Assembly (NCBI GenBank): GCA_029567325.1
Contig: JAKQLF010000396.1
Span: 1 to 64,000, forward strand
Direction of reading: 5' to 3'
DNA: 64,000 nt
Source: Bacteroidota bacterium
GTDB taxonomy: Bacteria; Bacteroidota; Bacteroidia; Chitinophagales; Saprospiraceae
The position numbers were made by a program, and so were the translations under genes. The notes under the pieces were generated by a model, which saw only the letters and a list, made by a program, of their open reading frames with translations, had not been told where the DNA came from and made no database searches. Below are positions 10,645 through 45,769 of the stretch, in pieces. Position 1 is the stretch's first letter, and each line of letters starts with the position of its first letter.

Positions 10645-10872
10645 TTGGTCTATTACAATGCATTTGCATTACGCTAATATGTGGTTTTAGATTTCTTAAA
10701 ACTGGTTTCACAATTAGTAAAAGCCATATTTGGATCGCTCGGTGAATCCAAAGAATAGGTTTCTATTTATTAATATTCCCATTATTCCCCATTTCATTCA
10801 TAAAAATAAAGAGACAAGTTATTTGGTAAATTCCTCCCCTATTGACTACCTTCCATTCAGAAATACTTCATC

Positions 10873-12600: not shown

Positions 12601-12634
12601 GCATCTATCTGCTGAGTAGTTTATAAAATCTCAA

Positions 12635-12668
12635 GATGAGAGATGAAAGAAGAAAGAAGAAAGTTCAA
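12635..12668. repeat. Dispersed purine-rich repeat, copy 2
   Basis: A 34-nt purine block starting GATGAGAGA and ending AAAGTTCAA, colinear with the block at 200-233 and differing at six positions by hand count. It lies in the gap between the sulfatase and the second serine hydrolase gene. Here most of the cytosines of copy 1 are replaced by adenine or thymine, giving AAGAAAGAAGA-type runs. Confidence 0.6.
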
Positions 12669-12847
12669 TTAAGAGCACTTACTTAAATTTGATTGGAAAA
12701 AATACTTTTATTTTTTCTAGTTAGCACTTTGATGTTTTCCAGTATTAAAGCACCGTCCATTCTATCTCGAAGCCAATATTTCATAACACAGTTCGTTATC
12801 GGAATTAATTGCTCGTTTCCGAATAATTAAAACAACTTTTGCTAAGT

Positions 12848-14281
12848 ATGAAACACTTATTTATACAATCCTTTGTTTTTTATATCGCTATCCATGTGCT
12901 GTCTGCCCAGATGAGTGACCCAATTGAAAAAAGAATTGATTCTTTATTTTCAAAATACAATGATCAAACAGCTGGTGTGTCTGTTGCGGTTGTGAAAAAT
13001 GGTGAAGTTGTTTTAAAGAAAGGATATGGAATGGCCAATCTTGAATATGACGTAACCAATTCACCTCAGACAATATTTCATGTTGCTTCAGTTTCAAAAC
13101 AATTCACGTCTTTCGCTATCTTTCTTTTAGAAAAAGAAGGCAAAATAAAATTTGATGATGACGTCAGAAAATACATACCAGAACTTCCTATTTATGATAA
13201 GCCAATAACTATAAGTCATTTATGTGCTCATACCAGTGGTCTCAAAGATCAGTGGGCTTTATTAACTTTGGCCGGGTGGAGAATGGACGATGTCATCACA
13301 ACAGAGCAAATACTCAAGTTGATTTACAAGCAAAAGTCATTAAATTTTACTCCAGGAACACAATATAAATATAGTAATACGGGCTTTACATTGTTGGCTG
13401 AAGTGGTAAAAAGGGTATCGGGAAAAAGTTTCGCAGCATTTACGGATGAGTTTATTTTTAAACCGCTCCAAATGAACAACACTTTATTTTATGACGACCA
13501 CCAAAAAATTGTAAAAAACAGAGCTTATTCTTACGGTAGCGAAAATGGAATTTATGAAAAAAGGAATTTAAATTATGCCACAGTTGGACCAACAAGTTTA
13601 TTGACAACTGCCGAAGATTTAGTCAAATGGGTATTGAATTTTGAAAAGCCAATCGTTGGTGATGCCGATTTAATCCCTCGATTTAATCAAATTTCCTACC
13701 TCGAAAATAAAGAACCTGCGATTTTAGCAGTTGTCGATGGTGAAACTATTTATCATTTGAAAGGGCAGTTCATAAGAAATTACAAAGGGCTGGAGGTATA
13801 CAATCACACAGGTAGTGATGCCGGCTTTAAATCCTATTTAGGTCGCTTCCAAGACAATCGTTTATCCATTATTTTGCTGAGCAATGATGAATCTTTTCTA
13901 TCCTATAAGACCGGTATGGATATCGCAGAATTTTATTTATTTGACAAATTCAAACAACGTGAAGTACCAAATGCAGAAGCACCAAAAATGGTTGCAGAAA
14001 CAAAGCCAATTGAAGTTGTAAACCTAAAAGAATATGGAGGGGTATTTCGAAATGAAGCATTATCCTCAGCTTTCACTTTAAAAACAGTCAATGGCCAATT
14101 GGTTATGACCCATGATAGATTGAGTGATGTCGTTTTAACTCAAATAGGAAATGACAAATTTAATGGTGCGATCACTTTTTCCTGTGAGATCACTTTTACA
14201 AGAAATAAAAAAGGAAAAATTGGCTCGTTATCTATAACAAATTTTGGGGCAAATGATGTTGTTTTCAATCGGATTAAATAA
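12848..14281 (+). CDS. Serine hydrolase, class C beta-lactamase fold, secreted
   Basis: The ATG at 12848 is preferred over an in-frame TTG at 12839. It gives a 477-aa protein with signal peptide (MKHLFIQSFVFYIAIHVLSAQ). Active-site motifs are SVSK at about residue 81, YSN in QYKYSNTGFT, and HTG in VYNHTGSDAGF. The catalytic domain ends near residue 360 and is followed by about 110 residues of beta-rich C-terminal domain (EYGGVFRNEALSSAF to the end), as in DUF3471-like tails. Compared with the homologue at 9358 it lacks the large insertion and is not a lipoprotein. It is probably a periplasmic peptidase or esterase; no substrate can be inferred. Confidence 0.85.
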   Translation: MKHLFIQSFVFYIAIHVLSAQMSDPIEKRIDSLFSKYNDQTAGVSVAVVKNGEVVLKKGYGMANLEYDVTNSPQTIFHVASVSKQFTSFAIFLLEKEGKIKFDDDVRKYIPELPIYDKPITISHLCAHTSGLKDQWALLTLAGWRMDDVITTEQILKLIYKQKSLNFTPGTQYKYSNTGFTLLAEVVKRVSGKSFAAFTDEFIFKPLQMNNTLFYDDHQKIVKNRAYSYGSENGIYEKRNLNYATVGPTSLLTTAEDLVKWVLNFEKPIVGDADLIPRFNQISYLENKEPAILAVVDGETIYHLKGQFIRNYKGLEVYNHTGSDAGFKSYLGRFQDNRLSIILLSNDESFLSYKTGMDIAEFYLFDKFKQREVPNAEAPKMVAETKPIEVVNLKEYGGVFRNEALSSAFTLKTVNGQLVMTHDRLSDVVLTQIGNDKFNGAITFSCEITFTRNKKGKIGSLSITNFGANDVVFNRIK

Positions 14282-17900: not shown

Positions 17901-19052
17901 ATCTATCAGTGTTTCTCCATTCCAAGATCGTATATATAAGTTGTTCCTTGGATCTGCAAAAATATTTTTGATGCTTTGATTTGGGACTAAGTGATTAAAC
18001 TTTTCAGACTCAAAAGAATATTTTTTTAGTCCGTGACCGTTCAATCCCACCCATACCAATCCCGTTTTGTCTTTGAAAAAAAAATTGGCGAATACATTAT
18101 TTACCGTTAAAAAAAGACTTTCTTTGGGATCAACTGCATTTCCTTTTTTCCATTTAGAGACATCAAAAATTTCTATAACTCCCAGATTATTATTAGATCG
18201 CCACAAGCGACCATTTTCTTCAAATAAAATGCTACCAGTATGCCCGTTGAAAATTGGTTTTTTAAATGTTGGGTAGGCAGATATTCCATCATAAAGAGTC
18301 ACATATTCATCATTATTCCATACACTTCCATCATCGTTTTTTATGATTTGTGTTCCTCCAATGTTGATATTTTTTTGCAATTCAAATTGGTAGGTTTTTT
18401 CATTCAATCTGTATGTTAAACTGTCGCATTTGTACCAAGTGCGGCCAACTTTATCGGTATAAGACACTTGATTGTAGTAGTTACCCGGGTTAAAAGAGTT
18501 TTTGGGTTTCTTTATATGCGAAATCCTGATGCTTTTTTGATTTTCAAAAAAATCTTCATCAATGGTTACCAAGTCAAAATTTTCATGAGAGGTATTGACC
18601 AAAAATCGTCCGTCAGCTAGCTCTGTAATTTGTTCCAATACTTCGTTGCCACTAAGACTGTTTGCATCTTTGGGGTCGTGAAATAATCTGTAAAACTTTT
18701 CTGTTTTTTTATCAAAAATATTGAGCCCGTGGTCAGTGCCTACCCAAATGCGACCTTTACTGTCTTCATACAAATAGTAGGTGGCATTATTGGAGATTGT
18801 GTATGGGTCAAAAGCGTCATAGTCATAAACTTTAAAAGAGTAACCATCGTATCGATTGAGTCCAGCTTTTGTCGTCATCCACAGGAAACCATCTTTACAT
18901 TGTAAAATTTGCCAAATATATCCTTGCGAAAGACCTTGTGCAGTGGAAAGTGTTTCGTATTTGAATTGACCAAAAGCAGAGTGGCTCAAAATGAGACACA
19001 ACAATGCCAAATAAAAAGCATAAAACTTAACCTTTTTAGGCTGCAAATTCAT
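14913..19052 (-). CDS. Hybrid two-component system sensor/regulator (HTCS)
   Basis: A 1379-aa single-polypeptide signalling protein; the ATG at 19052 is preferred over an upstream TTG. After a signal peptide come repeated reg_prop propeller blades (DSKGRIWVGTDHGLN-type units) to about residue 690, a Y_Y_Y domain (YRYQLEGIDDSW, then YSHLPAGNYTFRVQGSN), and one transmembrane helix near 803-822. The histidine kinase follows with HEFRTP (His861), N-box LLSNALKF, DTGKGI and GTGIGLALTK. Then come a receiver domain with phospho-acceptor Asp1166 in LIITDVMMP and an AraC-type HTH at 1277-1379. HTCSs sense oligosaccharides in the periplasm and switch on glycan-use genes. All catalytic residues seem intact. 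The nearest candidates are the sulfatase and hydrolases upstream; no SusC/SusD pair lies nearby. Confidence 0.95.
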   Translation of the reverse strand: MNLQPKKVKFYAFYLALLCLILSHSAFGQFKYETLSTAQGLSQGYIWQILQCKDGFLWMTTKAGLNRYDGYSFKVYDYDAFDPYTISNNATYYLYEDSKGRIWVGTDHGLNIFDKKTEKFYRLFHDPKDANSLSGNEVLEQITELADGRFLVNTSHENFDLVTIDEDFFENQKSIRISHIKKPKNSFNPGNYYNQVSYTDKVGRTWYKCDSLTYRLNEKTYQFELQKNINIGGTQIIKNDDGSVWNNDEYVTLYDGISAYPTFKKPIFNGHTGSILFEENGRLWRSNNNLGVIEIFDVSKWKKGNAVDPKESLFLTVNNVFANFFFKDKTGLVWVGLNGHGLKKYSFESEKFNHLVPNQSIKNIFADPRNNLYIRSWNGETLIDSKGKILNSLMKGTDPRVLDYFISKQGDLWITKRTDKKSGFISAIEKINPETRQVKVYKTTFKNSYYHEQHISEDKLGRLWIGGHGGAIGVFDTLSGDFIEFTINTNPKSPLSDDALITSIYHDKAGTVWIGTEFGFTSIENKNIFEKGPRITWYENNPDNKTSLNNNSVSSFLEDPINNQLLWIGTKGGGLNLMEKSTGKIRHITTQQGLCNNTVYGLLTDDSGNIWGSTNNGLFCILATKDRTADFEIRHFTEAAGLQDSEFNTNAYCKMPNGNLAFGGVSGLNLFNPKEILLDTFAPNIFITKLIVGNQVIKNNDETGILTKAIEFTESITLDHKQDVFTIEFSSLDFRAPDQIKYRYQLEGIDDSWIESGNRRNVSYSHLPAGNYTFRVQGSNSLGIWNNQIKALTIKILPPWYTSWYAYLFYLVLFGWGIKAYYQYKIDQNKMAAQLQFEQNESHRIKELDKIKTHLYTNITHEFRTPLTVILGMVQHIRKSASEHLENGLEMIERNGNNLLRLVNEMLDLSKLEAGKMELNLIQGDVINFIRYIVESFHSVAESQEKKMHYLSALDQMYVKYDEEKLRQIVSNLLSNALKFTSKKGDIYISITIDNLSQLVIKVKDTGKGISESQIHFIFDRFYQADTTVTRNAEGTGIGLALTKELVQLMDGEISVKSPPIGSKIGTEFTVTLPLDIIHDFAEESEKSYLKEMDNARTDKTHSIEYINGLKKLNSDKPLILLVEDNADVVAYTASCLNDYRLAIGKDGQEGFEIACDMVPDLIITDVMMPFMDGYEMTKRLRNDERTSHIPIIMLTAKADIDSKLEGIEYGAEVYLEKPFNVDELVLRVRKLLDQRVILQKAYASQMGFNWDLTETSNNESTTTHFQSIVIPTIENEFVRKVTTEIEAHLSDENLSVEQLAKNLFMSYSQVHRKLSAIMGMSPNQYIRILRLKKAKELLINTDDTILNISMLCGFSDPSYFGKVFKQEFGVSPHEWRLK

Positions 19053-19294
19053 AAGGGAAAGATAGGTCAAGTTTCACTTTATTTTTGATCTAAAAGCCAT
19101 CAAAAAATCCTACTGATTTGAAAATGCTCAAATAATCGGGTAGATGCTTAAATTTTACGGTTATTATAATACTTGTGACTCAAATTTTTAATAAAATTAG
19201 CTTTCAAAATTAACTTTGACTATTATGGCCTTCTACCACTTATAGACGGCCTTTTGACGTACTAAAAGCTTGGTTTGTTTTAACTTATTAAAAA

Positions 19295-19852
19295 ATGACA
19301 CTTGACCAATTTAAGTTGACGATTCATATGGTTTCAAGCCTTGATGGATTTATTGCCAAAAAAGATAATAGTATTTCATGGTTCGAAACTTCTCACAGTT
19401 ACGATAACGGTGTAGATGGAGAAGACCCGGTAGAGTTTTTGAAAACAATTGATTGTTATGTAATGGGTTATCACACCTATGAACTCGCTTTATTGCTCTC
19501 TAAGGATTATGGCTGGGCTTATGGAGATAAACCAACCGTTGTATTAACTACGCGCCCATTACAATCCGATAGAAAAAATTTGACTTTTTATTCTGGCAAT
19601 TTAAATACTTTGATCATTGACCGACTAAAACCAAATTTTAATAATGTATGGGTTGTTGGCGGATCAAAATTGACTAAAGAATTTCTCACACAAAAATTAG
19701 TCGACGAAATACGAGTAAGCATATTGCCAATTATTTTAGGTGAGGGATTAGCGTTCTTTGACCAAATAGGCCAAGAACATCTTTTGATTTTAAAGGATGC
19801 CAAAGCCTACAAAAATGGGATGGTAGAATTGTGCTATGACGTAAAAAAGTAA
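19295..19852 (+). CDS. RibD C-terminal/dihydrofolate reductase-like protein
   Basis: A 185-aa protein of the RibD_C family. The opening LTIHMVSSLDGFIAKKDNSISWF is the family's NADPH-binding first strand and substrate loop. It continues with DCYVMGYHTYELAL, PTVVLTTRPL, the VWVVGGSKLTKEFL nucleotide-binding motif and RVSILPIILGEGLAFF. Stand-alone members of this type are common in Bacteroidota and reduce pterin- or pyrimidine-like substrates that are seldom known; it is not the housekeeping FolA. The last 14 codons reappear as a decayed direct copy at 26286-26326. An intergenic repeat follows the gene directly. Confidence 0.85.
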   Translation: MTLDQFKLTIHMVSSLDGFIAKKDNSISWFETSHSYDNGVDGEDPVEFLKTIDCYVMGYHTYELALLLSKDYGWAYGDKPTVVLTTRPLQSDRKNLTFYSGNLNTLIIDRLKPNFNNVWVVGGSKLTKEFLTQKLVDEIRVSILPIILGEGLAFFDQIGQEHLLILKDAKAYKNGMVELCYDVKK

Positions 19853-19873
19853 AACTTTTAATTCAGGTTTGAG

Positions 19874-19943
19874 TCAATTCCTTGCTGTAAGAAGGAACAG
19901 GTGGACAACTGGTTGTGCCAGCAAAGTATCGCCTTTAGCCTAC
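19874..19943. repeat. Dispersed intergenic repeat, copy 1
   Basis: A stretch of about 70 bp immediately downstream of the reductase gene. It matches 26214-26290 in order: CCTTGCTGTAAGAAGGAACAG corresponds to CCTTGCAATAAGCAGGAACGG, then GTGGACAACTGG to GTGGGCAATTGG, and GCAAAGTATCGCCTTTAGCCTAC to GCAAAGTATTGCCTTTAGTCTAT. The second copy has a few extra bases in the middle. Neither copy encodes a plausible protein. The two copies lie at the two ends of a 6.4-kb block. Confidence 0.7.
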
Positions 19944-20109
19944 CGCATAGCGTGGTCGTAGGCAGAAAATGAAGTATCGCCACCATATAATGCGGCAACG
20001 GTCAACAGGTGAATTAAAATAGAGATTTTGAAGACTACGTTGAGATATAATAAAGTGTAAATTGTACTTTTATATTACGTTATAGAATTCTTTTAAGATA
20101 TTTAATCCA

Positions 20110-20898
20110 ATGTATTTCAATAATAACAGCGTCCAACAAATCAAAGATGAACTACAATATTGGTGGACTCATCAAGATTTTTCTGATAATTCTATAAAAT
20201 CCTTGCCAAGTCATCTAGTTGATAATAATATATTGAAAGCGTTAGCGCAAAATACCAACACGGTTGTGCAGATATATGACATGAGTGGTTTTAAATCTAT
20301 TTATACATCACCCAATTGCAAAGCTATCTGTGGTTTTACTTCTGAGGAGCTAAATAATAAAGGCTTTCTTTACTGGATATCTACAGTGCCTATGAAAGAA
20401 ATGATGTTCTATATTAAAAGCTCTAAATTTGTAAATGAACAAGCCAAATCCGAAAAAACAGACCAAAAGCACTTTTTAAACCAAGTGGTCAATATGTCCT
20501 ATAAAAATAAAGCTGGCGAAAAAAGAAAAATGATAACCACCAATATCTGCCTTGAGACCACTCCAGAAGGTAAACAAAGATACCAGCTCATCATGTGGCA
20601 AGACATGTCACCGCAGTCAAAATCGGATGATTTCATAGCGCGATACCGCTTTAGTGAAAATGAAATCTACACCTATTTTTCTACCACAGGAAAATTTGAA
20701 AATAGAGATATTCTGACAGATAGAGAACATGAAGTGATCAACCTTACTGCACAAGGTCTGACTTCAAAAGATATTGCTAGTCAATTATTTTTAAGTGCTT
20801 TTACCATAGATAATCACAAAAAAAATGTGATGCAGAAATTTCAAGTGGGCAATATGATAGATGTTATTTCAATTTGTCGATTTCTTAATGTCTTGTAA
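20110..20898 (+). CDS. PAS-LuxR transcriptional regulator
   Basis: A 262-aa cytoplasmic regulator. Residues about 50-170 look like a PAS fold (TVVQIYDMSGFKSIYTSPN, then ICGFTSEELNNKGFLYWIS, and KNKAGEKRKMITTNICLE with a closing RYQLIMWQDM). This is the small-ligand or redox sensing arrangement, but no cofactor Cys or His is evident. The C-terminus is a LuxR/GerE HTH (ILTDREHEVINLTAQGLTSK, then IASQLFLSAFTIDNHKKNVMQKF). There is no receiver domain, so it is not a classical response regulator. It is the first gene after the reductase and repeat, and lies upstream of three co-oriented lectin-like genes, making it a candidate regulator of them (inference). Confidence 0.85.
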   Translation: MYFNNNSVQQIKDELQYWWTHQDFSDNSIKSLPSHLVDNNILKALAQNTNTVVQIYDMSGFKSIYTSPNCKAICGFTSEELNNKGFLYWISTVPMKEMMFYIKSSKFVNEQAKSEKTDQKHFLNQVVNMSYKNKAGEKRKMITTNICLETTPEGKQRYQLIMWQDMSPQSKSDDFIARYRFSENEIYTYFSTTGKFENRDILTDREHEVINLTAQGLTSKDIASQLFLSAFTIDNHKKNVMQKFQVGNMIDVISICRFLNVL

Positions 20899-21335
20899 CG
20901 TGTCTCTTATTTTGATTTTCTGATAGAATGACTAAATTAGTCATTGCTCAATAATGACGGTGTCCTTAACATTGCAAAACACTAATTTTTGCAAAATTGA
21001 AAAATACACTCATCCAAAAAATTTACCTGCAGGTACTTGATGAAACTAAAAAAAACTATCCTATTGCACAAATTATTGGAATAAAGGTGGCCGTGCTAAA
21101 CTATTGTAAAATCCCTTTACAAAATCAAAATATTTTTATTCTAATACCTCTTAATCGATTTTCTGAAATTTTAGCTCTCCATCTTATAAGACTTCATAGC
21201 AAGTATTTTATCAATGCTCATGCTTTTTAAAAAGGTGGAGAAATGTTGTATTAGAGATTTTGAAAGCACCTGCTGCTATATAAAATCAAAAAAAGTAATT
21301 AATCCTAAACTGTATTAATATAAAAGTAATTCATC
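20899..21335. other. Intergenic with a 19-bp palindrome
   Basis: About 440 bp between the regulator and the lectin operon. It holds a perfect palindrome at 20927-20945 (listed separately) and a 77-codon TTG-started frame (20997-21230) that I do not accept as a gene. The lectin operon promoter should lie at the right end but no box is clear. Confidence 0.5.
20927..20945. promoter_or_regulatory. Perfect 19-bp palindrome, possible operator
   Basis: AATGACTAA, a central A, then TTAGTCATT: 9-bp arms around one base, 29 bp after the regulator stop codon. A half-copy AATGAC recurs just downstream (20953-20958). There is no T-tract, so it is not a typical terminator. It could be a dimer binding site for the neighbouring LuxR-type regulator. 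Confidence 0.35.
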
Positions 21336-23114
21336 ATGAAGAAAATAATTGTCGTATTTCTAATTTTGATAAAAGGATTTTCTTCTTTTTCTCAAAATGT
21401 GGGCATCGGTACAACTACACCTCAGACTAAACTTCAAGTCATTGGAGAAACCACATCAGACAGTATAAAGTTAAATAAATTAATGCGCATAGACAGCCTC
21501 GGCAGCTTAGAGTTTGGAGCAAATAAAGCAGGAAAAGAAGAAAATGCCGGGCGAATCGGGTATCAAATTTTTAGTGATGGTTTAGATATTGTTGGTGCTG
21601 GAAATTCAGGTTTAGATAGAAAAATTAAATTTTTTAATGAAGGAGGAGCTACATTTTCAGGGATGTTGGGCATAGAAAATATAGCTCCGATTGAATTTGG
21701 TGTGGGCTTATTTAAAGATCCAAACTCAGGAAAAATTGGCTATAATTTATTTTCCGACGGGTTGGATATAACCGGTGCAGGATTAAGTAATAATGATCGT
21801 CGTATTAAGTTTTGGAATGAAGGAGGAGCATCATTTGTAGGTAAAGTTGGAATAGGCAATTCTAACCCTGAAAGTATGCTTCATGTCAATGGCCACATGA
21901 AATCTGATAGTTTCACTACTCAACAAGTGGTAGTAGAAGATATCCTACCCAATCATGATTTAATACGAATAGCGGGATCAACATCAACGCAAGTAGATCA
22001 AGAAAATAATGCTGGAAGCTTTTCACAAGCCCCATGGAATAATATATGGCAATCTTTTACAGCAGGACAAACTGGCATCTTAGCAAATATAAGTCTATTG
22101 TTTGTATCTGGTGAATCTTTAGTTAGAACATTAAAGATTTATGCCGGAGAAGGAACAAGTGGAGCAGAACTTTTCTCCACAACTTGGATAACACCCCAGA
22201 TCTCTTCAAGTCAATTTATTACATCTCCTAAAATAAACATCCCTATTGCAGCCGGTCAAAAATATACGATATTTTTAGATGTTGGAGCACGGTGGCGTAG
22301 GGGGCTTGATAATTACACTGGTGGTATGTCTTCTTTAAATCCACCTTATGACTTTAATTTTAGGACGAATATGATGGGTAATTATGATGAATATTTTAAA
22401 GTTAACAGCGAAGGGAAAGTAATCATATCTGGCTCGATAATGTTACCTACAGACGCATCTGCAGGTCGTGTACTCACATCAGATGCTACAGGCAACGCTA
22501 CTTGGCAAATACCTAGCAATTCTCAATTTGATTCAATAGTTATCAATGGAAATAATGGAGCTATTCGTTATAATAATAAGCAGAATAATCTAGATTGGCG
22601 TTTAATCTATAATGATAATTTTAATGATAATACAAGCCAAGGCTGGAACGCATATTCAAATTATAATAACTCTTCACCTTTACCTGCAACTGTTATAAAT
22701 AACCCTACTTTAGAACAGGTATTAACAAATTATAATGTTTTAGACAACTCGCACGTATTTAAAAAACTATATGATATGAGCGGCATTTCTTTTACACAGG
22801 TAAAGGTAAAATTTACATATATAGCAATAGATTCTTGGGATGCTGGTGAAATAGGATGGCTTGGAAAAGCAAACCAGCTGAATCAAGATCCAAACTTGAT
22901 TTGGCACAGCCAATTTAATACACAGCTATTAAAATATAACGCTTCAATTAATTCAGTGAGCTTTATTGGTGGTACTTCAAGAGATGTTAGTTACACAGGA
23001 GAAGCTACCTTCCCTGATAATAACAATTTTACCTTAACTTTTGGAAACAGCTTAAACAAGACCACGACAAATGGATCATTCGCTATTGATAATATCGAAA
23101 TATGGGTTAAATAA
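21336..23114 (+). CDS. Secreted modular surface protein, lectin-like (paralogue 1)
   Basis: A 592-aa protein with signal peptide (MKKIIVVFLILIKGFSSFSQ) followed by NVGIGTTTPQTKLQVIG, the stalk motif common in Bacteroidota surface and tail-fibre-like proteins. Two internal repeats follow (GRIGYQIFSDGLDIVGAG and GKIGYNLFSDGLDITGAG, each ending KFxNEGGA). Next is a module of about 150 residues shared with the two next genes (WQSFTAGQTGILANISLLF, then LKIYAGEGTSGAELF). The C-terminus differs from its neighbours. It is a jelly-roll type domain, LIYNDNFNDNTSQGWNAYS to FAIDNIEIWVK, resembling concanavalin-like carbohydrate-binding domains. It is probably a surface adhesin. The next gene starts 4 bp after its stop, so the trio is an operon. 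Confidence 0.75.
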   Translation: MKKIIVVFLILIKGFSSFSQNVGIGTTTPQTKLQVIGETTSDSIKLNKLMRIDSLGSLEFGANKAGKEENAGRIGYQIFSDGLDIVGAGNSGLDRKIKFFNEGGATFSGMLGIENIAPIEFGVGLFKDPNSGKIGYNLFSDGLDITGAGLSNNDRRIKFWNEGGASFVGKVGIGNSNPESMLHVNGHMKSDSFTTQQVVVEDILPNHDLIRIAGSTSTQVDQENNAGSFSQAPWNNIWQSFTAGQTGILANISLLFVSGESLVRTLKIYAGEGTSGAELFSTTWITPQISSSQFITSPKINIPIAAGQKYTIFLDVGARWRRGLDNYTGGMSSLNPPYDFNFRTNMMGNYDEYFKVNSEGKVIISGSIMLPTDASAGRVLTSDATGNATWQIPSNSQFDSIVINGNNGAIRYNNKQNNLDWRLIYNDNFNDNTSQGWNAYSNYNNSSPLPATVINNPTLEQVLTNYNVLDNSHVFKKLYDMSGISFTQVKVKFTYIAIDSWDAGEIGWLGKANQLNQDPNLIWHSQFNTQLLKYNASINSVSFIGGTSRDVSYTGEATFPDNNNFTLTFGNSLNKTTTNGSFAIDNIEIWVK

Positions 23115-23118
23115 TACA

Positions 23119-24576
23119 ATGAAAAAGAAATCAATTCAAATTAAAACAAGTGAGTATCTATTAGTAATTACTTTATTATTTACTTTAACAGATATTGGCT
23201 ATAGTCAAAATGTCGGTATCGGCACCACTAATCCACAAAGTAAGTTACATGTAGTAGGAAACACGAAAATTGATGGTAAAATACTTGCGACTGATTCTGT
23301 TTTTGCCAATCAAAGTATAGCAGTAGGAGGAGAAATAAGTGGCGACAGTATGGAATTACATGGTATAAACTACAATTACAAGGCCCTCAAAATCGGAAAA
23401 ACGATAGTGGGTGGTCTTGATCAAACATTTCAACCAAGTAGTTCTTCAGCTGGCATTGGAGATAATAGTTCAGCATGGCAATCGTTTACTGCAGGGTACA
23501 CGGGAGTTCTTACAAACGTTGAATTACGTTTTGGATTTGTGCCGGACCCATTAATATTAAGGTTATACAATGGTCAAGGCAATTCTGGACCTATTTTATT
23601 TGAAACCATGTGGACACCAGGGATTGCCGGTTATGCATTATCACCTACCATTAACATACCACTTATAGGCAATAATATTTACACAATTGTAATTAGCAAC
23701 TCTTCTAGTAGATGGTACAAGGCAGTAAATAATCCATATCCTGGAGGTAGGGCAAATAGTGATGCCAATCATGATTTTATCTTCAGGACATATATGGCTG
23801 CAGGAAATTATCAAGAAACTGCTAATATAACCATAGATGGTGACATAAGTACTGTTGGCAATGTTTCTGCTGCTTCACTCCAACTTACAGAAGGAGCAAG
23901 TATCAATAAAGTATTGCTATCAGATACCCAGGGAAATGCTCATTGGGGCAATCTTGTTAATCAAAATATTGCCTATTGGTTATTAAACTCAAATAATGAT
24001 ATTTACAATGTTAATACAGGTAATGTAGGAATAGGGACCAACACTCCAAATGCTAAGCTACACGTCAACACTAATGATAATGCTCCATTTGCAGTAAGTG
24101 GTACTAATAGCCAAGTAAGAATTGTAGAGTCAGACAATAGTAACAAACAGTGGAAAGTTGAAGTTCAGGCAGGTAATTTTTCTGTTACAGAAAATGGGGT
24201 AAGCGTGCCACTGACCATCGAAGCAGGTGCTGGTGATAATGCATTGCGCATCACCAATAACGGAATTACCCAGGTTCAAAAGATCAAAGTGGGAAATAAT
24301 GGTTCAGTATTCAATAATATACAAAGAGGGACTTTTTTAATCGGGCCACAAACACTTTCTCAACCCACTTTAGAGGTGACCAGGGCCTTTCCGACGGCAT
24401 TTGCAACCATACCAAGACTAAATGCTATATGCCGTAACGAAGCACCATTTTCCAATCAATTTTCTGTCACAATAAAGGCAATTACTACAACAGATGTAAC
24501 ATTCATCATTCGTAGGTTGGATAATGCAGGGGGTTGGGGACAACAACTTTTGCTGGACTGGTGGGCATTTCAATAA
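23119..24576 (+). CDS. Secreted modular surface protein, H-type lectin-like (paralogue 2)
   Basis: The start at 23119 (MKKKSIQIKTSEYLLVIT) gives a signal peptide and avoids a 44-bp overlap with the previous gene (485 aa). Order: NVGIGTTNPQSKLHVVG stalk, the shared module (WQSFTAGYTGVLTNVELRF, then LRLYNGQGNSGPILFE, and HDFIFRTYMAAGNYQ), a second VGIGTNTPNAKLHV motif, then a domain with FAVSGTNSQVRIVESDNSNKQW. The last about 85 residues look like an H-type lectin: ICRNEAPFSNQFSVTIKAI followed by GWGQQLLLDWWAFQ, with the terminal WWA typical of that fold. H-type lectins bind GalNAc- or Gal-containing glycans as trimers. The lectin call is by pattern, not by search. Confidence 0.75.
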   Translation: MKKKSIQIKTSEYLLVITLLFTLTDIGYSQNVGIGTTNPQSKLHVVGNTKIDGKILATDSVFANQSIAVGGEISGDSMELHGINYNYKALKIGKTIVGGLDQTFQPSSSSAGIGDNSSAWQSFTAGYTGVLTNVELRFGFVPDPLILRLYNGQGNSGPILFETMWTPGIAGYALSPTINIPLIGNNIYTIVISNSSSRWYKAVNNPYPGGRANSDANHDFIFRTYMAAGNYQETANITIDGDISTVGNVSAASLQLTEGASINKVLLSDTQGNAHWGNLVNQNIAYWLLNSNNDIYNVNTGNVGIGTNTPNAKLHVNTNDNAPFAVSGTNSQVRIVESDNSNKQWKVEVQAGNFSVTENGVSVPLTIEAGAGDNALRITNNGITQVQKIKVGNNGSVFNNIQRGTFLIGPQTLSQPTLEVTRAFPTAFATIPRLNAICRNEAPFSNQFSVTIKAITTTDVTFIIRRLDNAGGWGQQLLLDWWAFQ

Positions 24577-24619
24577 AATTTCCTTAATAATTTGAGTCAT
24601 TCCGTTTAAAAAACTGTCC

Positions 24620-26059
24620 GTGAAAAAACTTTTATATTCAATATTGATAATAGGATCTAGCATTAGTTTATCTGGCCAGAAAGTAGGTATTGGTATTCAG
24701 AATCCAGATAGTACGTTTCATGTTTTGGGAAATACTTTACACAATGGAAAAGTAAACATTCAAAACAATTCTGAACTGAATAAAGGGTTGACCATAAAAA
24801 AAGGTGGAAAGGCAAATAGTATGCTGCTATATAATGAAAACACAAATTATGAGGCACTTAAGATCGGAAAAAATATTGTCGGAAGTATAGAATTAAGCAA
24901 TCAACCAAGCATTTCAGTGACTTCTTCAAGTTTAAGTTCGGGCTCTGCTTGGCAAGAATTCAGACCACTCACTACAAAAATATTAACAAATATTGCTTTT
25001 GATTTTGGAGGAATATCAAATACCAGCAGAACGATTAGGATTTATGCTGGTAGCGGAATAAATGGAGCTATACTTTATGAAAACAACAATTATAAACCAC
25101 TTGCAGGATGGTCGATTTCACCACCCATCAATCTACCAATTGTTGCTAATCAAGCTTATACCATTTGGCTTAGTGCTGATAACTGGCTAAAAAAACCACT
25201 AAACGCGAATGAAGGAAACACATATCTTCCTGGGAAGTCTTCAATGGGCGATCATGATTTTAGGTTTCGTACTTTTATGATCAACGCTGATGAAAATTAC
25301 AGACAGGTTACTTCAATTAATATTAATGGTGATATAAAGACGGTAGGCAAAGTAAAGGCAGCATCTCTAAAAATCAACGAGAATCCTGGCCTGAATAAGG
25401 TTCTAATTTCTGACGCAAACGGCAATTTAACTTGGCAAACCAATGCACCTACTGTGCCAGCACTTTGGCTACCATTGCAAACCAATAATATTATTGCCCT
25501 AGAAAATATTAAAATTAATAACCCACCCACGAATGCACGCTTAAGCATTGCTGCTGATGCAAATGTTTTTCAAGTGAGTGGGCCCAATTCGCAATTAAGG
25601 ATAAGAGAGTCAGACAACTCAAATAAAGAATGGGGGGTATCTGTTAACGGTGGGCAATTGAGAATATCAGAAACATCAAATGCAACTATACCTGTCATAA
25701 TTGAGCAAAACAATCAAAATAATGCGCTGGTTTTGAAAAATGATAATATTGTGGCTACTCAAAACTTACAAGTCAGCGAACTAGGCACACCCATACAAAA
25801 CATCGTAATGAGTGAGTTTACAGTGGGTCCTTCAGCAACAGCAGTAAAAGAAGTTACCCTAAATTTTGGAGCGGGTACTTTTTCGAGCCCCCCTTTGTTT
25901 TTCCCTCAATGCAGAAACGAAACTTCAGCAATTAGTGACCAATTCGCTGTGACTATTAAATCCATAACTAGCACTTCAACTGTGATAATAATAACTCGTT
26001 TAGATGCACCAACGGGCTGGGGACAACAATTAAAACTAGATTGGTGGGCTTTGCAATGA
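24620..26059 (+). CDS. Secreted modular surface protein, H-type lectin-like (paralogue 3)
   Basis: A GTG-started 479-aa protein with signal peptide (KKLLYSILIIGSSISLSGQ). It has the same architecture as paralogue 2. The stalk VGIGIQNPDSTFHVLGN is followed by the shared module (WQEFRPLTTKILTNIAFDF, then IRIYAGSGINGAILYE, and HDFRFRTFMINADENY), the segment FQVSGPNSQLRIRESDNSNKEW, and a C-terminal H-lectin-like domain ending GWGQQLKLDWWALQ. It lacks the second VGIGT motif of paralogue 2. The separation from the previous gene is 43 bp. Divergence between the two lectin tails is moderate while the WWA end and CRNE segment are conserved, suggesting selection on binding. Confidence 0.75.
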   Translation: MKKLLYSILIIGSSISLSGQKVGIGIQNPDSTFHVLGNTLHNGKVNIQNNSELNKGLTIKKGGKANSMLLYNENTNYEALKIGKNIVGSIELSNQPSISVTSSSLSSGSAWQEFRPLTTKILTNIAFDFGGISNTSRTIRIYAGSGINGAILYENNNYKPLAGWSISPPINLPIVANQAYTIWLSADNWLKKPLNANEGNTYLPGKSSMGDHDFRFRTFMINADENYRQVTSININGDIKTVGKVKAASLKINENPGLNKVLISDANGNLTWQTNAPTVPALWLPLQTNNIIALENIKINNPPTNARLSIAADANVFQVSGPNSQLRIRESDNSNKEWGVSVNGGQLRISETSNATIPVIIEQNNQNNALVLKNDNIVATQNLQVSELGTPIQNIVMSEFTVGPSATAVKEVTLNFGAGTFSSPPLFFPQCRNETSAISDQFAVTIKSITSTSTVIIITRLDAPTGWGQQLKLDWWALQ

Positions 26060-26130
26060 TTTTTACATTGAAGTGTTGCGTTTATCAATTCCTTGGGAGT
26101 AATTCGGCAATTCCTTGCAATAAGCAATGG

Positions 26131-26220
26131 GCAATTCTCTTCGAGGCAATTTGGCACCGGACAATTCTCTTCGAGGCAATTCGGCAATTGGCAATTCTCT
26201 TTGAAGCAATTTGGCAATCC
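26131..26220. repeat. Three tandem 30-bp repeats
   Basis: Three consecutive units of exactly 30 bp (26131-26160, 26161-26190, 26191-26220) share CAATTCTCTT and GAGGCAATT (or GAAGCAATT) cores. The flanks carry the related phrase CCTTGCAATAAGCA twice (26113-26126 and 26220-26233). The array is adjacent to the dispersed repeat copy 2. Because the period is ten codons, both strands stay open and give repetitive peptides, but no credible gene. Confidence 0.75.
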
Positions 26221-26290
26221 CTTGCAATAAGCAGGAACGGGTGGGCAATTGGCAATTGGCTACTTCTGCAAAGTATTGCCTTTAGTCTAT
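26214..26290. repeat. Dispersed intergenic repeat, copy 2
   Basis: This is the counterpart of 19874-19943, colinear with it and diverged. Where copy 1 continues past GCCTTTAGCCTAC into further noncoding DNA, copy 2 runs at TTTAGTCTAT straight into a fragment of the reductase gene's 3' end. The short word AGCCTAC occurs both in copy 1 and in the reductase gene (19804-19810), so the junction sits on microhomology. Confidence 0.7.
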
Positions 26291-26326
26291 AAAAATTGGA
26301 GGGTAGAATTGTGTTATGAAGTAAAA
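26286..26326 (+). pseudogene. Remnant of a reductase gene 3' end
   Basis: About 40 bp align without gaps with 19806-19846, the end of the RibD/DHFR-like gene, with five or six mismatches by hand count. The shared core is GGTAGAATTGTG. Read in frame it still spells ..VELCYEVK, against VELCYDVK in the intact gene. Nothing of the remaining reductase is present. It lies in the same orientation as the intact gene, 6.4 kb away, and 16 bp from the stop of the IPTL-CTERM gene. Confidence 0.7.
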
Positions 26327-26342
26327 TTTTTATTTCCAGTTC

Positions 26343-26864
26343 TTAAATCTCTATTTCTGTGCTTTTATTTAGTGCCTTAGCATAAATAACCCCGCCAATT
26401 AAAATAGATAACAATAAACAAACAATGGCCCAATCTGACATGGTTGGTATTTGTGTCGGACCGCCGATTACCAACGGATATGCCCCATCGGTGGCTTCAA
26501 TAAATTCTGTTTGTCCTGCTGGTCTGATCAAGAAAGATGGAGCAAGTGATCTTTTTTTACCTTCATTTTCCCTTGCTGCAAGACAAACAGGCGGTATGAC
26601 ATAATCAAAGCGGACATAATAGGTTCCCGGACTTGCATAGGTGTATGTTGCAGGGAAGGGCAACAGGTTTGCAGGATTTTCTGCATAACTGGGTATTATG
26701 GATTCTACCAGACAGTTATCATTGTTAAGGAGAGTGAAGGTGACTGCCTGTCCGGCTATAGGATTGGCAGGTGCATACTCCACCTGGTAAGTGGAAATTC
26801 CTGCATAGGTTGTATGCATACATGCAACAAATATGGATAGGACAATAATAATTTTTGATTTCAT
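26343..26864 (-). CDS. IPTL-CTERM domain surface protein (1)
   Basis: A 173-aa protein with signal peptide (MKSKIIIVLSIFVACMHTTYA). A beta-sandwich-like body of about 110 residues follows, with PKD-like phrasing (YAPANPIAGQAVTFTLLNND, then YASPGTYYVRFDY). The C-terminus is an IPTL-CTERM sorting signal: IPTMSDWAIVCLLLSILIGG, a transmembrane helix, then a short tail. Such tails are processed by an exosortase-type (XrtH-like) enzyme, which is not in the window. Its 3' end lies beside the reductase-tail remnant. It is followed on the same strand, upstream, by the propeller gene with a 35-bp gap, so the two may be co-transcribed. Confidence 0.8.
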   Translation of the reverse strand: MKSKIIIVLSIFVACMHTTYAGISTYQVEYAPANPIAGQAVTFTLLNNDNCLVESIIPSYAENPANLLPFPATYTYASPGTYYVRFDYVIPPVCLAARENEGKKRSLAPSFLIRPAGQTEFIEATDGAYPLVIGGPTQIPTMSDWAIVCLLLSILIGGVIYAKALNKSTEIEI

Positions 26865-26899
26865 TTTATTTTGATTGTTTCTGATTTATGATTTAAGAC

Positions 26900-28729
26900 T
26901 TAATTGGATTTGTTGAAAATGTAGGCTCCTTCCTGGTTGCCTGCAATCAAATGGTCCTTTGACATGGACAATGCATTGAATTTGCCAAAACCAAATGTTT
27001 CAAGCAAGGCTTGGACAACCCAAACAGAACCATCAAACTTATACATGACTGTTGGGGTAGACAGTGAACCACCTACTACAATATATTCCCCATAACAGGC
27101 CAGATGTGATCCTAAAGCGCTTTGACTCAGATCACTGGGAAACGAAAGTTTTATCTCTGTTGAAGGACCAAAGCCTAATTTTTCATAGACATAAACTGAG
27201 CCCTGGTTCGTTGTAGGCCCTCCCAAATCATCACCAACAGCCCCCACAACCAGATATTCAGTAGAGTACGGCGGATAGGCCGAAATGGCAACGTTGTATC
27301 CAAACTCATCTCCGGCTGCTCCATCAGAGGCAATAATAGTTTTGGTGTATGCATAACCAGAAGTTAATCCGAGATATATGAATACAGAACCCTGATCTAC
27401 TTTTCCGTTGATGTCATCGCCAATTGATCCGATTGCCGCGTATCGCTCATGTAAAGCAACTGAATACCCAAAATAGTCATATGCTTGTGGGCTGGAATTG
27501 TTTGTAATTTTTTGAAAGACATTCCATGAACCACCAGATTGGACATAAGCATAAACAGAACCCTGATGATTGTTGGAGTTGATATCATCTAGTGGTGCAC
27601 CAATCAACAAGTCATTCCCATAAATGGCAATTTGCCAGCCAAACCAATCATTGGCCGATCCATCAATTGCAGAAAGTTTATTTTTGAATATCCACTGACT
27701 GCCCTCCCGAAAGTAGATATATACAGAGCCTTGATCTACATTGGCCCCAATATCATCGAAAGGAACTCCCACTGCCAGATAATCTCCCCATAGGGCCACC
27801 TTGGTGCCAAATCGATCGCTTGTACCACCATCATTTGCTTCCAGCTTTGTTTGAAGAATCCAATCTGATCCGTTTTTGCGAAATATGAAGACAGAGCCCC
27901 GGTCGTCATTTAATGTATAATCGTCGCTGGGAGAGCCAACTGCTGCATAATCACCATAAATGGCAACAGAAGCTCCAAACAAATCTCCCGGTGCCCCATT
28001 ATAATCCGATAGCTTGTAGTTAGGGCTTATTTTTGAGGAAGCGATTGTTCCAAAGGACTCCGCATTTGATTTGGTCAGCGACAGCCATATTGTGCCGTTG
28101 TAGCCTTCAAAATCTTTTATAGCGTTATTCCAACGTATCGATCCGGCTGAAGGCTGCTCACTTGTATCGCCCAGTTTTATTCTTCCGCTGACATCCAGAG
28201 CAGCTTGTGGTTTACTGGTATTGATTCCCACCTTCGGAGGTGGGGGAGGACAGGTCAGACAGATCACTTTTGTAGTTCTCCATTCAGTATCTTCTCCGCA
28301 AGGTGGTAGTGATGTATGAATATGGACCGCTATCACATCCGGATTTGCAACTGATTGATAATCGTACGGTGCGATACCGTGTCCCAGTAATGCGTTGGTA
28401 TATTTATTTCTGATGGTAAAATAATCGCCGTCGGCGCTTGAAGTAATGCGGTAAACCTGATTGGCTTTTAATTCTTTCAGTATAAAATATGAACCAGGGT
28501 AACTTTTATCAGTAATGAGTAAGGTGTCATTGAATGCTGAGACAGAAACCTCATCATAAGGAAACATTTCATCTATTGGACTTATGCATTGTGGAAAAGC
28601 ATTATTTCCTAATCCGCAGCAAAAAACAAAAATGATCAGTTTTAGTCTTATAATGGACGTTGATCCGTCCAGAGCGGGTATCTCTTTATCAACTGCTCGT
28701 TCAAAAATTAGTTTGAGAATATTGTTCAT
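26900..28729 (-). CDS. Secreted FG-GAP beta-propeller protein
   Basis: A 609-aa protein. A hydrophobic export segment (LKLIIFVFCCGLGNNAFPQ) begins near residue 30, later than usual. An N-terminal domain to about residue 165 precedes PKVGINTSKPQAALDVSG, the same stalk-type motif as in the lectin-like proteins. Seven FG-GAP-like repeats then follow. Examples are DLFGASVAIYGDYAAVGSP, RFGTKVALWGDYLAVGVP, WFGWQIAIYGNDLLIGAP and YFGYSVALHERYAAIGS. They predict a seven-bladed propeller. No T9SS C-terminal domain is seen. It is probably secreted or surface-exposed. It is divergent from the sensor kinase gene, sharing a 197-bp intergenic region with it. Confidence 0.8.
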   Translation of the reverse strand: MNNILKLIFERAVDKEIPALDGSTSIIRLKLIIFVFCCGLGNNAFPQCISPIDEMFPYDEVSVSAFNDTLLITDKSYPGSYFILKELKANQVYRITSSADGDYFTIRNKYTNALLGHGIAPYDYQSVANPDVIAVHIHTSLPPCGEDTEWRTTKVICLTCPPPPPKVGINTSKPQAALDVSGRIKLGDTSEQPSAGSIRWNNAIKDFEGYNGTIWLSLTKSNAESFGTIASSKISPNYKLSDYNGAPGDLFGASVAIYGDYAAVGSPSDDYTLNDDRGSVFIFRKNGSDWILQTKLEANDGGTSDRFGTKVALWGDYLAVGVPFDDIGANVDQGSVYIYFREGSQWIFKNKLSAIDGSANDWFGWQIAIYGNDLLIGAPLDDINSNNHQGSVYAYVQSGGSWNVFQKITNNSSPQAYDYFGYSVALHERYAAIGSIGDDINGKVDQGSVFIYLGLTSGYAYTKTIIASDGAAGDEFGYNVAISAYPPYSTEYLVVGAVGDDLGGPTTNQGSVYVYEKLGFGPSTEIKLSFPSDLSQSALGSHLACYGEYIVVGGSLSTPTVMYKFDGSVWVVQALLETFGFGKFNALSMSKDHLIAGNQEGAYIFNKSN

Positions 28730-30995: not shown

Positions 30996-31754
30996 ATGAA
31001 AGCTATTATCATAGATGACGATTTCGAAAGCATTAAAACGCTATGCATAATGTTAGAAAAGTTTTGTCCGCATGTTTCCATTATAGCAACTTGCAGCGAA
31101 ACGGTTTCTGCCGAAACTGTCCTTGCTGAAGTCAAGCCTGATTTAGTTTTTCTTGACATAGAAATGCCTGGCAAAGATGGTATCACTTTTTTGAAAGACC
31201 AAAATTCTCCAGAATTTGAAGTCATTTTCGTTACGGGTCATGACGAGTTTTTATTGCAGGCTCTTAGGCTAGCTGCCGTTGACTATTTACTTAAACCTGT
31301 TGATCCTTATGAATTAATCTATGCCGTTGAGCAAGCAAAGTCCAGGTTTTCAACTAAAACCATTTCTAAACGGTTAGAAGTTCTTACAGAAAATTTGATA
31401 AACAAAGAAAACATAAAGAATGGTAAAATTTGCTTGTCTGATGCTGATGGTTACTACATTGTCCGCTTCAAAGATGTATTATATCTTGAGGCTGACAATA
31501 CTTATACTTTGTTCTTTCTGATGGATGGCCGCCAGATGCTCATTTCAAAACCTCTGATAGAATATGAAAGATTGCTTCCAGAGGAAGAATTCTTTAGGAT
31601 ACACAAATCATATCTTGTTAATATGTCACATGTTACAGGCTTTAAAAAAACAGAAGGAGGATGTGTTGTCTTGAGTAGTGGTCGGGAGCTTGAGGTGAGT
31701 AGACGGAAAAAAGACGAACTATTAGAAAGGATAAAAAATCTCTTTTTATTTTAA
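30996..31754 (+). CDS. LytTR-family response regulator
   Basis: A 252-aa protein (ATG at 30996 preferred over a TTG two codons earlier). The receiver domain has IIIDDDFES, phospho-acceptor Asp54 in LVFLDIEMPG, and the LLKPVDPYEL segment with conserved Lys. A LytTR DNA-binding domain fills the C-terminus (DVLYLEADNTYTLFFLMDG, then EEFFRIHKSYLVN and ELEVSRRKKDELL). LytTR proteins bind direct repeats at promoters of surface or extracellular product genes. The gene starts 2 bp after its kinase partner, an obligate pair. No binding site could be recognised by eye. Confidence 0.92.
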   Translation: MKAIIIDDDFESIKTLCIMLEKFCPHVSIIATCSETVSAETVLAEVKPDLVFLDIEMPGKDGITFLKDQNSPEFEVIFVTGHDEFLLQALRLAAVDYLLKPVDPYELIYAVEQAKSRFSTKTISKRLEVLTENLINKENIKNGKICLSDADGYYIVRFKDVLYLEADNTYTLFFLMDGRQMLISKPLIEYERLLPEEEFFRIHKSYLVNMSHVTGFKKTEGGCVVLSSGRELEVSRRKKDELLERIKNLFLF

Positions 31755-32004
31755 ATTGTTTTGGTCTCCGAAACCGATTGAGCATTTAAAACACTTTCTT
31801 TGATCCTTTTCTTCTGAGCTATTGAATTTAGCAGAATACATTATTTATATTGATTTTTTTAAACTCGGAACGAGTTCGGTGAATATCAAAAAATATACGT
31901 CCTCGTAACTATATTTGATGCTAAATAGCCTGCTTACGCGTGCAAATTGTTTGCTAATGAGTGCCATAATTAAAGGATTGCTTCCAACCTAAATAACCTT
32001 CACC

Positions 32005-32934
32005 ATGCAAAAACACATTTATCTTGTTTTCATACTTTTCATGTCCTTCCTTTCATATGGCCAGGAAATGGAAACGGTTTATTTAAATGCACAAGACAGT
32101 ACCACAAACATGTTTGTAGCTGTATTTCCTGAAAGTGGACAGATTAAATCAATACTGATTTTATTAGACGGTTTTGGAAATTCACCAAAAGACGTTTTAT
32201 TTCAAACAGATATTCCTAAATATGCCTCACAACAAGGTATGCTCACCATCATTCCTCTTTTAAAGACTGGCCCTTCTTATTTTGGAAGTGATGCAGATTC
32301 TCAACAATCGTTGAAGGAAATTATTGACATCGTTGTTACAAAATATCAATTAAATGGCAAGGACTTATACATTGGTGGCTTTTCAATTGGTGGAACATGT
32401 GCAATAAAATATGCTGAGTTGTCTATTCGAGAAAATTATTCAATAAAACCCAAAGCCGTTTTTGCCATTGATCCTCCACTTGATTGGGAGCGTTATTATA
32501 AAGGTGCCAAAAGAGTTGCGAGACTTTCAAATCCAGAACAAGTAAATGCAGAGGTATTTTATATGATAGAAAGGATAGAAAAAGAAATGTCGGGAACGCC
32601 GGAATCTTCATTAGAAAATTATTATGCCAATTCGCCTTATTCCTTTTCTGATACAAGCCAGAAAGCTGTTAAAAATTTAATTAATACACCAATTATGATC
32701 ATCTCAGAGCCCGACATTCAATGGTGGTTGAAAGAAAGAAATTATGACTATTCTTACAACAATATTATGGACCATGCAGCTATGATTAATGAACTCCAAA
32801 GATTAGGCAACAAAAATGCTGTTTTAGTAACGACAATAGACAAAGGATACAGAAAACCAAATAATATGAGACATCCTCATTCCTGGAGTATTGCAGACCC
32901 TGAACAATTAGTAACGTGGCTGCAATCTCAATAA
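32005..32934 (+). CDS. Secreted alpha/beta hydrolase
   Basis: A 309-aa protein with signal peptide (MQKHIYLVFILFMSFLSYGQ). The fold elements are an oxyanion region ILLDGFGNSP, nucleophile elbow GGFSIGGTC (GxSxG), an Asp-bearing strand IMIISEPD, and a late His in RHPHSWSI. It resembles small secreted esterases or dienelactone-hydrolase-like proteins. Substrate unknown. It stands between the two-component system and a second propeller protein. A hairpin follows at 32940-32961. Confidence 0.75.
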   Translation: MQKHIYLVFILFMSFLSYGQEMETVYLNAQDSTTNMFVAVFPESGQIKSILILLDGFGNSPKDVLFQTDIPKYASQQGMLTIIPLLKTGPSYFGSDADSQQSLKEIIDIVVTKYQLNGKDLYIGGFSIGGTCAIKYAELSIRENYSIKPKAVFAIDPPLDWERYYKGAKRVARLSNPEQVNAEVFYMIERIEKEMSGTPESSLENYYANSPYSFSDTSQKAVKNLINTPIMIISEPDIQWWLKERNYDYSYNNIMDHAAMINELQRLGNKNAVLVTTIDKGYRKPNNMRHPHSWSIADPEQLVTWLQSQ

Positions 32935-35797: not shown

Positions 35798-35902
35798 TTT
35801 ATTTCTAATTTTTGTGGTCCATTTAAACGTTTTATGTTTCTCTTAATAGACCAGTTTTCTTGTTTATAGATTTGAATGCTTTGTATAAAATGGATTTTTG
35901 GA

Positions 35903-36682: not shown

Positions 36683-36871
36683 CAGATTGTTTTTGTAAAA
36701 ATTATTAATTGTGTTATACACACTTAATATGGCTTGGACAAAGATATAAAAGAATGGATATGTTGGATGGCGAGGCAGATTCTTTAAGAAAATATTTTGG
36801 AGAAGTAGGAGAACAGAAGTGTTAATGCCTGGGATATTGCTATTTAAGGATGAATTGATATCTTTACTAAC

Positions 36872-41687: not shown

Positions 41688-41728
41688 TATTAATTAATCT
41701 CCTATTTAAATTCTCAATTGTATTTAAT

Positions 41729-44674: not shown

Positions 44675-44810
44675 AATGAAAATCTTAGTCAGAAAAAGTT
44701 TAGATAAGCATACACTGGAAATGGCTAAATTCTGGGTTGGTGAGTTGATTTACCGGCATCAAAGATTGTTGCCAAAAAAAGGTGTCAAATTAACCTTTAA
44801 GCGCTATATC

Positions 44811-45413: not shown

Positions 45414-45769
45414 GGTTTTTTGTTTTCCTAATACAATTTATAATTAAAATTACAAAATATACAATTTTAGTAATGGTTTTATTTGAGGTCCTATTTAAAT
45501 TAACATTCTGAAGCTTTCAATCAGACACAGGAAACATTGCCTTTGCAAAATCAACTTTGGAAATAATTGAGGCTTGGGTTGCAAAGTGCCTAATGTTATA
45601 TAAATGAACCTCTTGACCATATTTTTAAATTTTTATTCTCTCGCTCTATTTTGTTTTTCATTCAATTATATCGAAACTTCGTATTTAAAAAATTGTTAGT
45701 TTTAACTTTACCGAAAGAAGGTCCTTAGAAAAATCGTACATATAAGTCTTTCATCAAAAAGTAATATCA
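45414..45769. other. Intergenic holding a kinase-gene remnant
   Basis: About 360 bp with the PfkB-tail remnant at 45553-45608 and little else. The remainder has no repeat, and no tRNA-like structure was seen. The promoter of the amidohydrolase should lie at the right end but is not evident. Confidence 0.5.
45553..45608 (+). pseudogene. Remnant of a PfkB gene 3' end
   Basis: The first 31 bp align with 44626-44656 with four mismatches; the remainder to about 45608 is more diverged. Read in frame, the remnant spells TLEIIEAWVAKCLML, against TLEMIEARVGKYLLL in the intact kinase. Upstream of it the frame no longer resembles the kinase. Orientation is the same as the intact gene. A weaker third likeness (TLEMAKFWVGEL, 44712-44745) lies between. 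Confidence 0.65.

Follow-up and report, generated by a model that had tools for sequence, protein, structure and literature searches.

The 3' end of an intact reductase gene and the noncoding repeat behind it recur, in direct orientation, beyond a block of regulator and fibre-like genes in the window (the whole 64,000-nucleotide stretch analysed here). We tentatively read this locus, from its sequence, as the possible scar of an integrase-free illegitimate recombination (insertion-duplication) that would have left copies of one gene end on both sides of a lineage-specific block. The locus appears to be an ordinary trace of DNA misjoining, of a known kind, and a new type of mobile element is not indicated; a single locus of this sort is of little importance in itself.

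Duplicated gene end and repeat

The gene (19295–19852, forward strand) is an intact open reading frame, and its earlier labelling as a RibD/DHFR-like reductase is supported by the Pfam RibD_C model (E 7.3e-16). In a phylogenetic tree it groups with the genes of the congeners G002 and G005 (99/86); a recent import displacing an older allele was therefore rejected, despite a 76% match to Ginsengibacter. As the original prediction had stated, the end of this gene recurs downstream: positions 19804–19846 match 26284–26326 directly, at an offset of 6,480 bases, with 37 of 43 positions identical. Six positions differ (14% divergence), the longest exact run is 12, and with an 8-base gap the match extends beyond the stop codon to 19869 and 26341. 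By this alignment, tail copy 1 (19804–19869, forward) comprises the reductase 3' end and about 17 bases past the stop, and tail copy 2 (26284–26341, forward) is a relic joined to the second repeat copy at AGTCTA. The local-alignment score of 62 is far above the best value (37) from 60 dinucleotide shuffles against the whole 64 kb. Searching the 5.8-Mb assembly with the tail returned the reductase gene itself as the sole other significant match (E 4e-7), along with some partial matches that reach into the tail at E of at least 2.7.

The noncoding repeat had likewise been predicted to recur before the tail copy, and a gapped match of 19855–19942 to 26199–26289 bears this out (score 76, as compared with a maximum of 40 among 60 dinucleotide-shuffled versions run against all 64 kb). 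R1 (19874–19942, forward) consists of the core of a dispersed repeat, here named family A, and an extension, AAAGTATCGCCTTTAGCCTA, at 19923–19942; sequence of another dispersed hairpin family, B (19940–19990, forward), abuts it. The part at 26092–26289 (forward) is R2 together with a small array of 30-base units ahead of it. Family A is an intergenic repeat of GGCAAT-type hairpin units, which, with R1 and R2 counted, form 18 clusters over 1.26 Mb, none of them within open reading frames of at least 200 residues. Rfam gave no match at gathering score across 19000–27000, and the RNA folds of three stretches were no better than those of shuffles.

Since the repeat is dispersed, the arrangement could in principle be a coincidence, with a decayed reductase paralogue lying beside the flank next to independent copies of the repeat. 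Reductase paralogues can indeed adjoin each other, as they do in G005, and the 35-base core of R2 has only 3 differences to other family copies as compared with 7 to R1. However, the 20-base extension common to R1 and R2 has no other copy within two mismatches (all other matches have three), and the two also share two substitutions missing from 16 other matched segments; from these private features, R1 and R2 are probably a duplicated pair. Moreover, tail 2 matches the tails of 24 orthologues at only 23–33 of 43 positions, against 37 to tail 1, which points to duplication within this lineage; one of the 24 named loci, L162, was omitted from this comparison as a partial match. Tail 1 itself reaches 36/43 with two orthologue tails, leaving a thin margin to its 37/43 with tail 2. 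Coincidence thus appears improbable. A near-copy of the R2–tail junction, met in G293 when 298 genomes were searched (27/30, single-genome E 1.4e-4), is intergenic, has no reductase beside it and is probably due to chance.

Block genes, flank and distribution

Between the two repeats lie four main genes, all on the forward strand. The product of the first (20110–20898) had been described as a PAS-LuxR regulator; its LuxR-type helix-turn-helix (GerE) is supported by Pfam, whereas no PAS model was found at E ≤ 1. The three that follow are fibre- or lectin-like: gene 1 (21336–23114; 592 residues) is partly related to genes 2 and 3, and gene 2 (23116–24576) is 43% identical to gene 3 (24620–26059). 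A profile of genes 2 and 3 matches the Bd2133 fibre (8ond) at E 5e-5. The predicted C-terminal fold of gene 3 is similar to those of H-type lectins and of phage tailspike tips, with middling Z scores (8.4–9.7), in a model that is poor overall (mean pLDDT 39; 56–80 by blocks over residues 401–479). This fold, together with an H_lectin match of gene 2 that stays below the cut-off (E 0.44), suggests the label 'lectin-like'. The gene flanking the block on the right (26343–26864, reverse strand), which the original prediction presumed to be of the IPTL type, matched no family above the cut-off in a profile search.

At E ≤ 1e-8, gene 3 finds matches in 4 of 298 genomes of the family; one of these is its own genome, and the matches in the other three, including the congener G004, are weak and partial. 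The regulator has no close counterpart among five congeners. From these searches, the block looks confined to this lineage in the genomes covered. Its GC content and codon use fall inside the range of its neighbours, and a compositionally foreign block is unsupported: the GC3 of the fibre genes is low (0.245–0.289), a level that further genes in the window also reach.

An empty site in relatives had been named as the sign of an insertion, and a repeat scattered at many loci as a sign against it. The outcome is mixed. A limited search, covering the counterpart of the right flank in G005 alone, yielded no empty site; the repeat is indeed scattered, but R1 and R2 share the private features given above. 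On contig C91 of G005, the FG-GAP and IPTL-type genes have exchanged places, their neighbour is peptidase-like and the reductase is absent; for these reasons C91 was rejected as an empty site. Partial FG-GAP matches also occur in G001–G003.

Origin of the arrangement

Because the copies are genuine and the block seems confined to this lineage, an old insertion, as originally proposed, is plausible. The composition is native-like, and integration of the att type is unsupported. An integrative element that has since lost its integrase, with the two tails as attL and attR, would agree with the location behind a gene and with a 3' end that is restored. Yet no recombinase was detected with Pfam and NCBIfam among the four main block proteins (four short overlapping open reading frames of 81–103 residues, at 24418–26292, were left out), there is no exact att core in tails that differ at six of 43 positions and share no exact run beyond 12 bases, and no inverted pairs of at least 20 bases, the length covered in looking for terminal inverted repeats of a transposon, link the two block ends. 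The integrase/att reading was rejected on the inexact core and the missing recombinase, and we regard it as very improbable.

At the junction of R2 and tail 2, where the word CTAY was noted earlier together with its occurrence in the intact gene and in R1, stands the six-base word AGYCTA, present as AGCCTA at 19804–19809 (gene) and 19937–19942 (R1) and as AGTCTA at 26284–26289 (junction), a short microhomology at the joint that is found at both parental places. Tail 1, being homologous to tail 2, could offer a homologous anchor, in which a crossover tract is not visible at such divergence. Under illegitimate recombination, the incoming molecule would have carried a reductase gene end, the repeat and the regulator/adhesin block; its left end would have been anchored through the gene end common to it and the resident reductase, and its right end joined through AGYCTA into another copy of the reductase gene end, giving the order gene–tail 1–R1–block–R2/tail 2. 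We infer an outside origin of the block and one main event, with either a linear molecule or a circle. Several observations speak against this reading: the paired copies of R require an additional duplication step, the reductase bears no sign of recent import, the block is native-like in composition, and over its core R2 is closer to other members of the family than to R1.

A native duplication followed by deletion accounts for the copies nearly as well and is a close rival to insertion. Here the segment from inside the reductase to the repeat would have been doubled through AGYCTA, and later deletions would have removed the second copy of the block and left a 5'-truncated tail, with no foreign DNA involved. 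Tandem duplication places 5'-truncated copies of a gene behind it and in the same direction, as seen here, and the native-like composition also agrees with it. However, at least two events are needed and no second block copy is left, the relic tails are short, and the block genes lack close relatives in congeners; taken by itself, we consider this course of events rather unlikely.

Similar scars and known systems

The illegitimate recombination proposed above may have parallels. Within the window, the end (44625–44686) of a gene at 43841–44674 (forward), which we take to encode a PfkB-like kinase, has a diverged direct copy at 45552–45614 (forward; 50/62). The stretch 31740–32010 holds no relic tail. 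Two congeners carry scars of the same form with uneven identity: in L126 identity is complete over the final 56 bases and 77/78 over the final 78, against 119/153 in the preceding part, and in a nadA relic (359/375 identical) 11 of the 16 mismatches fall inside 49 bases. Such unevenness is as expected from homologous exchange. The small cargo gene and the downstream genes of the nadA scar are absent from the fetched flanks (up to 1.5 kb) of 25 other nadA loci, which gave no polarisation.

A scan for copied gene ends, its totals summed over the own genome, G004 and the named and related loci (samples that are not random), found direct copies of tails downstream of the gene in 9/1680 cases, of which two are tandem gene pairs and one (L152) follows its own gene at a distance of about 110 bases. 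The controls gave 2/1629 for direct tail copies upstream, 1/3309 for inverted tails, 4/1659 and 4/1630 for gene heads downstream and upstream, and 8/13240 for mid-gene segments (Fisher p for the downstream tails, 3e-5 versus mid-gene, 0.065 versus upstream tails and 0.12 versus heads; with the present case and the tandem pairs removed, 0.0027 versus mid-gene and 0.031 versus upstream tails). The excess of tail scars is clear only against the mid-gene controls. Both upstream cases are tandem gene pairs, and the imbalance between downstream and upstream also favours native duplication. Queries with more than two copies in a sample (dispersed repeats, spurious reading frames within arrays of repeats) were excluded from the counts, and 14 pieces of the own genome, all below 3 kb, were left out. 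A PepSY case scored 41, below the cut-off of 42, and stands outside the nine. Of four detailed re-alignments, those of G004 C11, L143 and C363 were left out because each aligned a gene flank to itself; the C363 case is supported by other alignments.

More generally, gene 3' ends might be recurrent integrase-free landing places in Saprospiraceae, where lineage-specific genes would enter behind a gene, the gene end being restored and the relic tail staying as a datable scar. Two scars about 25 kb apart in the window, a possible third in the genome and the younger, uneven ones in two congeners point this way, but we hold the generalization to be quite doubtful. If relic tails were common insertion scars, they would be a simple mark by which integrase-free gene gain could be counted in environmental genomes without sequenced sister strains.

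Genomic islands located at the 3' ends of genes have their extra genes enclosed between direct copies of the gene end. The present locus has the same outline, but no integrase was found in it and there is no exact core. It is also similar to insertion-duplication and homology-facilitated illegitimate recombination: a stretch of gene common to both molecules could anchor one end, with the other joined at a short homology, and part of the target gene can become duplicated around the insert, whereas at this locus no donor, empty site or crossover tract is visible and the tails are 14% diverged (PMC3240628, PMC2884548). In one report on Escherichia coli and a small plasmid, 56 of 60 clones gave a PCR product of a partial target-gene duplication (14 sequence-confirmed); its authors ascribed these duplications to single crossovers of circular molecules rather than to the illegitimate route, and homology-facilitated illegitimate recombination was expected to yield deletions and was rare (PMC3240628). 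Finally, the locus recalls the displaced 3' regions behind new modules in T6SS and Rhs loci, where old gene ends remain downstream of new cargo; there the effector is replaced and the immunity gene retained for function, whereas the present relic is a noncoding remnant of about 43–66 bases and the reductase is intact (PMC5361080).

Copies of a gene tail and a repeat around the block

The 3' end of the intact RibD_C/DHFR-like reductase gene (tail 1, 19804-19846) recurs directly at 26284-26326 as a relic (tail 2), with 37 of 43 positions identical; allowing an 8-base gap, the match reaches 19869/26341, beyond the stop codon. Two copies of a noncoding repeat, R1 and R2, alignable over 19855-19942 and 26199-26289, bracket a block of one LuxR-type regulator and three mutually related genes. 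Both pairs of copies reported in the original prediction are real: with the whole window searched, the tail alignment scores 62 and the repeat alignment 76, while the best of 60 dinucleotide shuffles of each reached 37 and 40, respectively. In the assembly containing the window (402 contigs, 5.8 Mb; window on contig C225), the sole other significant match of the tail is the reductase gene itself. Tail 2 is closer to tail 1 than to the tails of 24 orthologues (23-33 of 43 identical), which points to its origin by duplication within this lineage; tail 1 itself matches two Mucilaginibacter tails at 36 of 43 positions, near the tail 2 figure. R2 runs into tail 2 at AGTCTA, and the same word, as AGCCTA, stands at the start of tail 1 and the end of R1. 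The fusion of R2 with tail 2 would be the product expected from microhomology joining.

The dispersed repeat family

A repeat scattered at many loci was expected to speak against an insertion, and here the evidence is divided. R2 matches many sites in the assembly, and the 12 that were read out consist of arrayed GGCAAT units together with small words resembling hairpins. The family forms 18 clusters, R1 and R2 counted, in 1.26 Mb of genome, where none lies inside an ORF of at least 200 aa; the flanking genes are co-oriented at 11, convergent at 3, divergent at 2 and unknown at 2. On the other hand, the 20-base extension AAAGTATYGCCTTTAGYCTA is exact at R1 and R2 only (two further sites have 3 mismatches), and these two copies have in common two substitutions absent from 16 other matched segments. 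Over a 35-base core, R2 differs at 3 positions from some other copies and at 7 from R1. R1 and R2 are probably a duplicated pair taken from this dispersed family; that the whole arrangement is a coincidence of separate parts seems improbable. The stretch directly after R1 belongs to a second repeat family, and several families of low-complexity intergenic arrays (GGCAAT, GGAAATC and CACGAGC types) occur on many contigs of this genome.

Block genes and their relatives

The three tandem fibre-like genes occupy 21336-26059, the third with an H-type-lectin-like tip: the predicted structure of its C-terminal domain (pLDDT 56-80 by blocks) has a fold like those of H-type lectins and phage/pyocin fibre tips (Z 8.4-9.7). 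A profile from genes 2 and 3 matches the Bdellovibrio fibre Bd2133 (8ond, E 5e-5), which belongs to the mosaic adhesive trimeric fibres (PMC10769870) and to which these two genes bear a distant resemblance. Gene 3 has matches at E<=1e-8 in 4 of 298 family genomes and the profile in 5 of 395 phylum genomes, own genome counted in both. The GC content and codon use of the block are inside the range of neighbouring genes.

A close reductase orthologue is present in only two of five congeners, G002 (65%) and G005 (56%), with neighbours unlike those in the window. Contig C91 of G005 retains the FG-GAP, IPTL-type, kinase and response-regulator genes of the right flank, but there the first two have changed places, and the contig contains neither reductase nor block. 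The FG-GAP and IPTL-type genes at 26343-28729 correspond to 10788-13193 of the G005 locus L126, where they lie beside the same kinase in swapped order. G001-G003 have partial FG-GAP matches. Neither state of the site, empty or occupied as in the window, came to light in this comparison, in which the flank examined was that of G005. The proposal of an old insertion is borne out in part: the copies are real and the block seems confined to this lineage, which makes an insertion plausible.

Other gene-tail copies and known systems

A second case lies in the same window, where the tail of a PfkB-like kinase gene (gene and copy, 43841-45614) at 44625-44686 recurs at 45552-45614 (50 of 62 identical); the intervening stretch holds a small ORF as well as an IPTL-type gene. 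A third, weaker case on contig C363 of the same assembly (153709-153798 versus 155196-155283, 65 of 88) falls within 153166-155283, where a presumably PepSY-like gene is followed by a presumably desaturase-like gene that runs into a copy of the first gene's end and takes its last five residues from that copy. At L126 (16521-16753 and 19271-20719), a 233-base relic lies 2.5 kb behind its gene, which we take to be arabinanase-like, with two genes, one peptidase-like, between; identity is complete over the last 56 bases, 77/78 over the last 78, and 119/153 over the part preceding these. In congener G004 (contig C7, 69696-71806), a gene that we take to be nadA is followed by one small gene, which was not found within flanking stretches of at most 1.5 kb at 25 other nadA loci, and by a 375-base relic of itself (359 of 375 identical, 11 of the 16 mismatches within 49 bases). 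Within the window, a two-gene unit is also apparently present twice, inverted (34349-36721 and 40944-43183), its arms 72-80% alike across the first gene and matching more weakly in the second.

Downstream direct gene-tail copies in noncoding DNA number 9 in 1680 over all samples, which are small, non-random and include the given reductase case; two are tandem gene pairs. These copies clearly exceed the mid-gene controls (p 3e-5); their excess over tail-upstream copies (p 0.065) or gene heads (p 0.12) is not clear. We judge the locus to be of an ordinary kind, and tentatively read the tail duplication around the block as an anchored insertion-duplication of the general kind described below. Native tandem duplication with deletion is somewhat less likely, and an element with a lost integrase appears very improbable. 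Homology-facilitated illegitimate recombination is a documented process; in an E. coli study of it, however, most clones (56 of 60 by PCR) had part of the target gene duplicated instead, an outcome that the authors put down to a circle integrating by one crossover (PMC3240628). Other reports tentatively propose an illegitimate route for the displaced 3' regions behind new modules at T6SS/Rhs loci (PMC5361080), and argue that illegitimate recombination ranks among the main sources of small variable segments (PMC2884548).
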